Source: Sphaerisporangium siamense (GTDB lineage Bacteria; Actinomycetota; Actinomycetes; Streptosporangiales; Streptosporangiaceae). Taken from it: 64,000 bases of DNA. The notes beneath the pieces are model-generated. The model made no database searches and was not told the DNA's origin. It worked only from the letters and a program-made list of their open reading frames with translations. The stretch's first letter is position 1, and every line of letters begins with the position of its first letter. The stretch is taken from contig NZ_JACHND010000001.1 of NCBI RefSeq assembly GCF_014205275.1, positions 3,348,001-3,412,000 on the forward strand, read 5' to 3'. This document shows, in pieces, positions 56,349 to 57,841 of this stretch. The position numbers and the translations under genes were made by a program.

Positions 56349-57230
56349 TCACCCTGCCCGCCGTGACTCGCCGAGCGCCAGGAACGCCACCGAGCCGAGC
56401 AGCACCGCCGCGCCCCCCGCCACCGCAGGGGTCAGTCGCTCGCCGAGGAGCAGGACGCCGATCGCCGTCGCCGCCGCCGGCTCCAGCAGCGCCACCACCG
56501 ACGCCGTGGTGGCCCGGACGGCCGACAGGCCGGTGAAGAACAGGCCGTAGGCGACGGCCGTGGGCATCACCCCCAGGTACGCGAGCAGCGCCAGCGTCGT
56601 GGCCTGGCCCCCGCCGGGCAGCAGGCCCTCGGCCGCGGCGATCGGGGACAGCAGCAGGCCCCCGGCGGCGAACCCCCACATCGCCGTACCCCAGGAATCG
56701 CTCCCCGCCGCCCCGACGGCGCGGGGGAGCAGCGTGACGGCGGCGTAGGCGACCGCCGACAGCATCGACAGCGCCAGCCCGGCGGGCGACACCGCCGCCA
56801 GGTCGCCCGCCATCAACAGCAGCCCCGCCGGCGCGAGGACCATGCCGCCCGCCGCGGCCCGGCCGGGCCGCTCGCCCAGCCACAGCCGCGCCCCGAGCGC
56901 CACCAGCGCCGGGCTCGCGCCGAGCGTGATCACCGTGGCCATGGCGACCCCGATCTCGGCCACGGCCCCGAAGTAGGCGGCCTGCGAGACGGCCAGCCCG
57001 CACCCGGCCAGCCCCACCGTGCTCCAGCGGGGCCGCGCCGCGGCGACCCGCAGTGCCCGCGCCGCGGCGAACATCACCGCGGCCCCGAACACGAACCGCC
57101 AGAACGACACCGCGACCGGCCCGAGGCCGCTGACCTGATAGAGGACGGCCGCCGCCGGCCCGCCCGTGCCCCAGATGACGGCGGCGACGGTGACGTACAG
57201 CAGACCCCGCGGTACGGAGACATGCGTCAT
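56349..57230 (-). CDS. EamA/DMT-family exporter
   Basis: A 293-residue transporter with ten membrane helices in two EamA repeats (first AAVIWGTGGPAAAVLY; second LSMLSAVAYAAVTLLP). Start ATG 57230 has SD GGAGAG. EamA proteins export amino acids, nucleobases, drugs or metabolites. Its 200-base leader contains a short peptide reading frame ending inside a perfect hairpin and a possible anti-SD, so expression may depend on ribosome behaviour. Confidence 0.92.
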   Translation of the reverse strand: MTHVSVPRGLLYVTVAAVIWGTGGPAAAVLYQVSGLGPVAVSFWRFVFGAAVMFAAARALRVAAARPRWSTVGLAGCGLAVSQAAYFGAVAEIGVAMATVITLGASPALVALGARLWLGERPGRAAAGGMVLAPAGLLLMAGDLAAVSPAGLALSMLSAVAYAAVTLLPRAVGAAGSDSWGTAMWGFAAGGLLLSPIAAAEGLLPGGGQATTLALLAYLGVMPTAVAYGLFFTGLSAVRATTASVVALLEPAAATAIGVLLLGERLTPAVAGGAAVLLGSVAFLALGESRRAG

Positions 57231-57323
57231 GAAGGTCTCTCCAAGGAAGTGGTTGGAAATGTCCCGCGAAAGCAGGCAGCAACCACCCACCGAGCCGCGC
57301 AGAGCCCGGTTGTCCGGAGAGGA

Positions 57324-57343
57324 ACCGCCCGCTAGCGGGCGGT
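57324..57343 (-). promoter_or_regulatory. Perfect hairpin in the EamA leader
   Basis: ACCGCCCGCT/AGCGGGCGGT is a perfect 20-bp palindrome, 94 bases upstream of the exporter start; the stop codon of the leader peptide (TAG, 57334-57332) is in its apex. CTCTCC (just 3') is complementary to the exporter SD GGAGAG. Confidence 0.7.
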
Positions 57344-57373
57344 CGGGGGAGAGACGATCAGAGTCGGACGCAT
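57332..57373 (-). CDS. Predicted 13-residue leader peptide of EamA exporter
   Basis: ATG 57373 to TAG 57332 encodes MRPTLIVSPPTAR, with consecutive Leu-Ile-Val codons. There is no good SD, so the transcript may begin near the ATG. It is not listed by length-based ORF calling but its end inside a perfect hairpin and its position suggest attenuation: a stalled or terminating ribosome would block the hairpin and free or mask the CTCTCC anti-SD. Pure inference from position; only the reading frame and structure are seen. Confidence 0.45.
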   Translation of the reverse strand: MRPTLIVSPPTAR

Positions 57374-57481
57374 GGCGGCAGGGTAACCACCCGCCCGCCC
57401 CCGGGCCATCGGTTATCGCGCCGGAAGAACTCGTTCCTTACCTGACGGCGGCTGACAGGTATGGGGGGCAGGATGGGCGCC

Positions 57482-57841
57482 ATGACAACGAAAGCACAGT
57501 TCGTCGCGGTGACGCTCGACTGCGCCGAGCCCAAGAGGCTGGCGGACTTCTACGCGAAGATCACCGGATATGAGAGCCAGTACGCGGACGAGAACTACGC
57601 GTACATCGGGGACGGGACGCACGCGATCGGGTTCCAGCGGGTCGATGAGCGGGTGCCCGCCTCGTGGCCGGGGCCGGCGAAGCAGTTCCACCTGGACTTC
57701 CGGGTGCCGGACGTCGACAAGGCCGTGCGCGAGTACGTGGAGCTCGGGGCCGTCAAGCCCGAGTTCCAGCCGGGGGACGGCTGGGTCGTCCTCGCCGACC
57801 CCGAGGGACACCTGTTCTGCGTCTGCCCCGAACGCTCCTGA
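57482..57841 (+). CDS. VOC-fold (glyoxalase-like) protein
   Basis: A 119-residue single-domain protein (ATG 57482). The VOC beta-alpha pattern is clear: FVAVTLDCAEPKRLADFYAKITGYE and HLDFRVPDVDKAVREYVELGA followed by VVLADPEGHLFCVCP, the usual end. Metal ligands are not fully conserved (His in KQFHLDFRV and Glu in DPEGHLF are candidates). Such proteins act as bleomycin-resistance, dioxygenase or isomerase-type proteins; the substrate is unknown. Confidence 0.9.
   Translation: MTTKAQFVAVTLDCAEPKRLADFYAKITGYESQYADENYAYIGDGTHAIGFQRVDERVPASWPGPAKQFHLDFRVPDVDKAVREYVELGAVKPEFQPGDGWVVLADPEGHLFCVCPERS

Follow-up and report, generated by a model that had tools for sequence, protein, structure and literature searches.

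How is the EamA exporter gene of this locus controlled, and to what would its control respond? In the window, i.e., the whole stretch of 64,000 nucleotides of Sphaerisporangium siamense DNA that was analysed, a sequence-only reading had recognized a leader peptide and a hairpin upstream of the exporter, and it had named branched-chain amino acids, or else drug-induced stalling, as possible signals. The gene under study is the following:

56349 to 57230, minus strand: EamA transporter of the DMT superfamily, 293 amino acids (PF00892, E 8.3e-29)

The coding sequence starts at position 57230 of the minus strand. Comparison of the protein with TIGR00950 (carboxylate/amino acid/amine transporter) yielded a score below the threshold (94 bits versus a cut-off of 230), and the exporter is near curated subfamilies, not within any of them. 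Relatives with a solved structure were not found by sequence comparison. A glyoxalase-like gene (PF18029, window positions 57461-57841, plus strand) is oriented divergently from the leader. By reading, similar sequence was also recognized before the leaders of loci L002, L006, L008, and L015, and thus some of the family may have inherited the divergent arrangement from an old ancestor.

The short frame and its putative promoter are located directly upstream of the exporter:

57380 to 57385, minus strand: -10 box TACCCT, 6 nt upstream of the leader ATG
57332 to 57373, minus strand: leader frame MRPTLIVSPPTAR including its stop codon, with the conserved core [LF]-[IVPF]-[VIL]-[ST]-P-P-(P)-(P)-x-x-stop

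The frame comprises 13 codons from the ATG (57373-57371) to the TAG (57334-57332). The 13-codon minus-strand frame with its stop in the apex of a palindrome had been described correctly before, but its start had been placed at 57375 instead of 57373. The hexamer TACCCT (57385-57380) is a canonical actinobacterial -10 box of the TANNNT type. Because it is only 6 nt away from the ATG, the transcript probably begins at the ATG and the leader frame would be read without a Shine-Dalgarno (SD) sequence; the 5′-end of the exporter mRNA is thus predicted at or next to the leader ATG, and the mRNA is probably leaderless. As a background, 688,000 strand-bases of the same genome were searched, made up of the window plus 14 stretches with a length of 20 kb each. 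Just seven short frames begin 6-7 nt past a TANNNT motif, and the leader MRPTLIVSPPTAR was the sole one of them with Pro-Pro near the stop codon.

In a first genome set such a leader was present ahead of nearly all EamA orthologues. A scan of 84,980 species genomes then yielded 80 EamA loci, 75 of them actinobacterial and five from Marinomonas. Conservation among homologues, on which the sequence-only reading had made its proposal depend, was clearly present: the leader was carried by 73 of the 75 actinobacterial loci. An automatic rule detected 71 of these, and L057 and L098 (MRSIMSPPAAR before the stop), which have a 9-nt spacing, were added. The two exceptions were L065, which has no leader, and L093, in which it is degenerate. 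On comparison of the sequences, carriers of the leader include Streptosporangiaceae, Streptomyces, Micromonosporaceae, and members of further families, and distant clades have versions with other nucleotides and other N-termini, i.e., MQLFLTPPPPAA, TVLPPPAA, LSPPAA, MHRxFPITPPPAL, and LFVTPPPYAS, each followed by the stop. In the genome of Streptomyces B-S-A12, two EamA genes are present (L065 and L106); one has the leader, and the leader region of the other is an unrelated sequence.

A maximum-likelihood tree was calculated for 105 EamA proteins. The supported clade that includes the window contains 59 rows, 55 with and four without the leader, and the latter are all from Marinomonas and nested among actinobacteria. 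A second, more distant clade contains 15 proteins with the leader and six without it. In the scan the leader was absent from all five loci of Marinomonas (Gammaproteobacteria). The EamA proteins of these loci (L036, L037, L046, L051, and L053) are 45-48% identical and are nested in the actinobacterial ones in the tree, and a gene transfer without the regulator is likely. With a covariance model of the leader, 35 of 120 family genomes gave a single strong match each, which was located ahead of EamA in every case with comparable coordinates. Three weak matches (G019:C26, G460:C14, and G058:C12) were rejected as leaders; they have no leader frame and were thus considered to be chance matches.

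Altogether 131 distinct leaders were collected with a rule that demanded Pro-Pro and a TANNNT motif 5-9 nt before the start, and therefore these two features follow from the way in which the set was built. Conservation is measured independently by the presence at 73 of 75 loci versus almost nothing in the background. The TANNNT motif, found at 5-9 nt in 131/131 leaders as the rule required, had a spacing of 6-7 nt in 123/131. The frames start with ATG or GTG and have a length of 10-16 codons. The proline run is two to four residues long (just two in 35/131 leaders), it is directly preceded by Ser, Thr, or Ala in 110/131 leaders (84%), and it is followed by two residues in 106 and by three residues in 24 of the 131. 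The distance from the first Pro codon to the end of the stop codon is 18 nt in 95/131 leaders and 15-21 nt in all of them. All four Pro codons (CCG, CCT, CCC, and CCA) and each of the three stop codons occur, showing that the peptide itself is kept, and not the RNA alone. Judged from these leaders, the conserved motif is [ST]-Pro-Pro-(Pro)-(Pro)-x-x-stop, not Leu-Ile-Val. The positions of the Leu-Ile-Val run are hydrophobic but variable in relatives (Phe, Pro, Thr, Cys, Met, and others), and Pro-Pro, which the rule required, is present in all 131 leaders. The earlier suggestion of a branched-chain amino acid signal was therefore abandoned, because codons for Leu, Ile, and Val are not conserved, and Pro-Pro is found instead.

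Between the leader frame and the exporter start, several RNA elements were identified, two of which lie within the frame:

57348 to 57355, minus strand: anti-SD 1, GTCTCTCC, within the leader frame (codons Val-Ser-Pro)
57335 to 57343, minus strand: segment 1, ACCGCCCGC, 5′ arm of the stop hairpin (codons Thr-Ala-Arg)
57324 to 57332, minus strand: segment 2, GCGGGCGGT, 3′ arm of the stop hairpin, partner of either segment 1 or segment 3
57316 to 57321, minus strand: anti-SD 2, CTCTCC, directly 3′ of the stop hairpin
57290 to 57309, minus strand: P3 hairpin, CCGGGCTC...GGCTCGG, with compensatory A-U/G-C changes in columns 83:94 of alignment A3
57272 to 57280, minus strand: segment 3, GCTGCCTGC, inside the 5′ arm of P4 (GCTGCCCGC in most relatives)
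57249 to 57286, minus strand: P4 hairpin, GTGGTTG...CAACCAC, with compensatory changes in A3
57237 to 57242, minus strand: SD sequence GGAGAG of the exporter, from reading the sequence

A perfect 20-bp palindrome, ACCGCCCGCTAGCGGGCGGT (57343-57324), has the leader stop codon at its apex, as had been noticed before; as RNA it would form an 8-bp stem with a CUAG loop. Two further pairings of the sequence-only reading were verified, namely that of CTCTCC (57321-57316) with GGAGAG (57242-57237) and that of GTGGTTG (57286-57280) with CAACCAC (57255-57249). The longer complement of the SD region, which it had not included, is anti-SD 1: GTCTCTCC (57355-57348) can form 8 bp with GGAGAGAC (57242-57235), and the corresponding helix, P1 in alignment A3, has 85% of its cells paired. 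Anti-SD 2 is retained in many Streptosporangiaceae leaders. The 176-nt leader RNA has a predicted folding energy of -82.4 kcal/mol (z = -4.43; none of 200 shuffles was as good), and in the predicted fold the SD helix closes a junction of three hairpins, i.e., the stop hairpin, P3, and P4. Rfam covariance models gave no relevant match to the leader up to E = 1, and in the window sequence a T-run was not found after any of the leader hairpins.

Segment 2 has two possible partners. It forms the stop hairpin with segment 1 (helix 1:2, mean z of -3.2 over 89 leaders), and it is also complementary to segment 3, about 50-60 nt downstream (helix 2:3, mean z of -1.5). As the two helices share segment 2 they are mutually exclusive, and helix 1:2 overlaps the leader frame. 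Covariation in homologous leaders, which had been proposed as a check, was found for helix 2:3: in 30 Streptosporangiaceae leaders, 96.3% of the cells are paired, versus at most 70% when the segments are slid against each other, and two pairs have changed on both sides. L021 and L022 also differ in helix 2:3 by a compensating change (GGGGCG x CGCCCC versus GGGGUG x CACCCC). Helix 1:2 is less well kept: columns 47:55 are mismatched in 10 of the 30 leaders, and the inner pairs of the stop hairpin are mismatched in about a third of the sequences, indicating that segment 3 constrains segment 2 more strongly than segment 1 does. In L013 helix 2:3 has an A-U pair instead of G-C, and the partner in 1:2 is lost there. 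Leaders of the Streptomyces TVLPPPAA type likewise have a nearly invariant GCTGCCCGC as segment 3. Segment 3 of the f21 clade can pair with segment 2, AGCGGGGCG, and otherwise folds onto the SD sequence (GCTCC x GGAGC). Most pairs of P1 and P2 are invariant, and thus covariation is uninformative there.

It is likely that the leader is a cis-acting ribosome-mediated attenuator, most likely a translational one, in which a pause at Pro-Pro switches the exporter ON. The layout of ribosome-mediated attenuation proposed by the earlier reading is supported, as many genera have conserved the leader peptide together with the stop hairpin and an alternative helix. Ribosomes would enter the leader frame at the leaderless 5′-end of the mRNA. 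A ribosome that runs through would reach the stop codon and depart, and the stop hairpin 1:2 would re-form; the exporter start would be folded, with one of the two anti-SDs or, in the f21 clade, segment 3 bound to its SD, and expression would be OFF. A ribosome pausing with the first Pro codon in its P site would instead mask segment 1 and anti-SD 1 with its leading edge at the stop codon; segment 2, left free, would form helix 2:3, and the start of the exporter would become accessible (ON). The sequence data show that the frame, a fixed distance between Pro-Pro and the stop codon, the spacing of the -10 box, and the helices 1:2 and 2:3 are conserved and that there is complementarity to the SD; pausing at Pro-Pro, the ON/OFF logic, and control of translation rather than of transcription are inferred. 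As no T-run follows any of the hairpins, intrinsic termination is less likely than translational control.

The leading edge of a ribosome is about +16 nt, as established from toeprinting. With the first Pro in the P site it thus coincides with the stop codon, so that the ribosome covers both segment 1 and anti-SD 1 but leaves segment 2 free, and this geometry is that of a classical attenuator whose ON state requires helix 2:3. The Pro-Pro-paused ribosome was mimicked by folding 126 leaders with the RNA covered up to the stop codon (masking). Helix 2:3, with a predicted probability of just 0.04 (f21 clade) and 0.03 (FVTPPP clade) in the free RNA, reached 0.83 and 0.72, respectively, under the mask, and the effect was smaller in the remaining clades. 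The mean unpairedness of the SD increased from 0.27 to 0.36 over the 126 leaders, with a rise in 83 of them. Sequestration of the SD is favored by complementarity and fold, but its predicted release upon pausing is small on average. For the window RNA, equilibrium folding predicted no release of the SD (unpairedness of 0.20 in the free and 0.16 in the paused state), with a probability of 0.01 for helix 2:3, whereas the start codon became much more accessible under the pause (0.27 to 0.92). The switch may escape a nested-fold calculation, or else the position from which the ribosome acts is nearer to the stop codon. In the Streptosporangiaceae clade the SD opened more when anti-SD 2 was covered as well (0.52, edge at stop+15), as would be expected if the ribosome were held on the stop codon or close to it.

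What could cause the pause? A contribution of the nascent chain to pausing is suggested by the fixed [ST] and the hydrophobic residues ahead of Pro-Pro, and such a role would point to a condition that slows Pro-Pro bond formation, such as a low EF-P activity or a peptidyl transferase inhibitor, rather than to the lack of one amino acid. Candidate signals are a low EF-P activity, scarcity of charged tRNA-Pro, or a drug acting on the peptidyl transferase. In E. coli, pausing is weak at TPPP, intermediate at FPPP, and strong at RPPP (PMC8129111), and therefore an extra condition must strengthen the pause at Thr-Pro-Pro-Pro. A weak pause suits a switch that is off by default and responds once Pro-Pro bonding slows.

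Induction of the exporter by a drug, i.e., by a phenicol- or oxazolidinone-type peptidyl transferase inhibitor that stalls the ribosome at a penultimate Ser, Thr, or Ala with Pro in the P site, is possible, albeit somewhat unlikely. The carriers of the leader are antibiotic producers and their neighbours, and the three residues precede the first Pro in 110/131 leaders; arrest by chloramphenicol and linezolid is best with penultimate Ala and less with Ser or Thr (PMC8987054), the position at which 84% of the leaders carry one of these residues. However, Ala, with which these drugs arrest best, is found in just 3/131 leaders and thus less often than Ser or Thr, and in 17 leaders the Pro run is preceded by Leu.

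Proline starvation, in which uncharged tRNA-Pro would slow the ribosome at the two to four Pro codons and the exporter would follow the amino acid balance, is rather improbable. Each leader has two to four consecutive Pro codons with variable synonyms, and the Salmonella mgtP leader, which is rich in proline codons, is a precedent (PMC3641672). On the other hand, merely two Pro codons are present in 35/131 leaders, a sensor of codon starvation has no need of the Ser/Thr/Ala (84%) and mostly hydrophobic residues before the run, and the exporter has no known link to proline.

It is doubtful whether the stall occurs at termination, as in TnaC, with a Pro-Pro-x-x chain slowing release and a ribosome at the stop codon covering the anti-SDs and exposing the SD. 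The Pro run has a fixed short distance to the stop codon, and in the Streptosporangiaceae clade the predicted opening of the SD is maximal once the covered part extends to at least stop+12, but such a ribosome would also cover segment 2 and prevent the best-kept helix, 2:3, and the last residues before the stop vary widely. A function as DNA operator or terminator, with the small frame as a by-product, is very improbable for the palindrome: it is perfect over 20 bp and lies within a divergent intergenic region, but no T-run follows it, frame and Pro-Pro persist with different nucleotides in other clades, and this reading was rejected because the palindrome is imperfect in relatives, in which segment 2 is still complementary to segment 3.

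Compared with known systems, the Pro-Pro-paused attenuator of the EamA exporter appears to be a variant of ribosome-mediated attenuation by mechanism, and an undescribed one as a family; in open-licence papers no EamA leader, no Streptomyces polyproline leader, and no EamA-linked conserved uORF was found. Translation attenuators of the ermC/cat type combine a short leader frame, alternative helices, complementarity to the SD, and a downstream resistance gene. These and the ribosome-mediated attenuators of ARE-ABCF genes in Gram-positives (the latter according to PMC12421871) share with the EamA leader the short frame, the alternative helices, the SD complementarity, and a resistance or export gene downstream, whereas the EamA leader is predicted to be leaderless, has Pro-Pro beside the stop codon, and occurs class-wide before one transporter clade. 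The mgtP frame of the Salmonella mgtCBR leader likewise uses Pro codons to govern alternative RNA structures (PMC3641672), but it belongs to a transcription attenuator of a Mg2+ transporter operon. The whiB7/wblC leader is also an actinobacterial frame with attenuation and responds to translation inhibitors (PMC12421871, PMC13236596), but it controls a transcription factor, and the accessible parts of these papers mention no Pro-Pro-stop motif in it. The actinobacterial ilvB/leu attenuators have a leader frame with regulatory codons (for ilvB1, PMC13236596), and the peptide of the window does contain Leu, Ile, and Val codons; unlike them, the EamA leader has no conserved branched-chain residues and no intrinsic terminator, and its target is a transporter.

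It is tempting to speculate, as a quite possible though still tentative reading, that the leader is a new, class-wide type of actinobacterial conditional arrest leader that senses the rate of Pro-Pro bond formation (the EF-P state or a compound targeting the peptidyl transferase) via a weak S/T-Pro-Pro motif in exact register with an RNA switch, and thereby couples the state of the ribosome to small-molecule export. It would be a widespread actinobacterial regulatory leader found neither in Rfam nor in the open-licence literature, as well as a natural, ready-made reporter of Pro-Pro pausing in antibiotic-producing bacteria, and its inducer would give a clue to what a common exporter transports.

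Two minor observations concern the frame itself. In the f21-clade locus L162 the leader reads MHRLFPITPPPLPSGARPSAPAAL up to its stop; TPPP is retained, but the usual stop codon is lost and the frame continues. The first Pro codon of the run is CCT in 27/131 leaders, versus 32 of 822 Pro codons in the EamA genes of the same loci, an excess that is perhaps explained by the complementarity of CCTCC to the SD.
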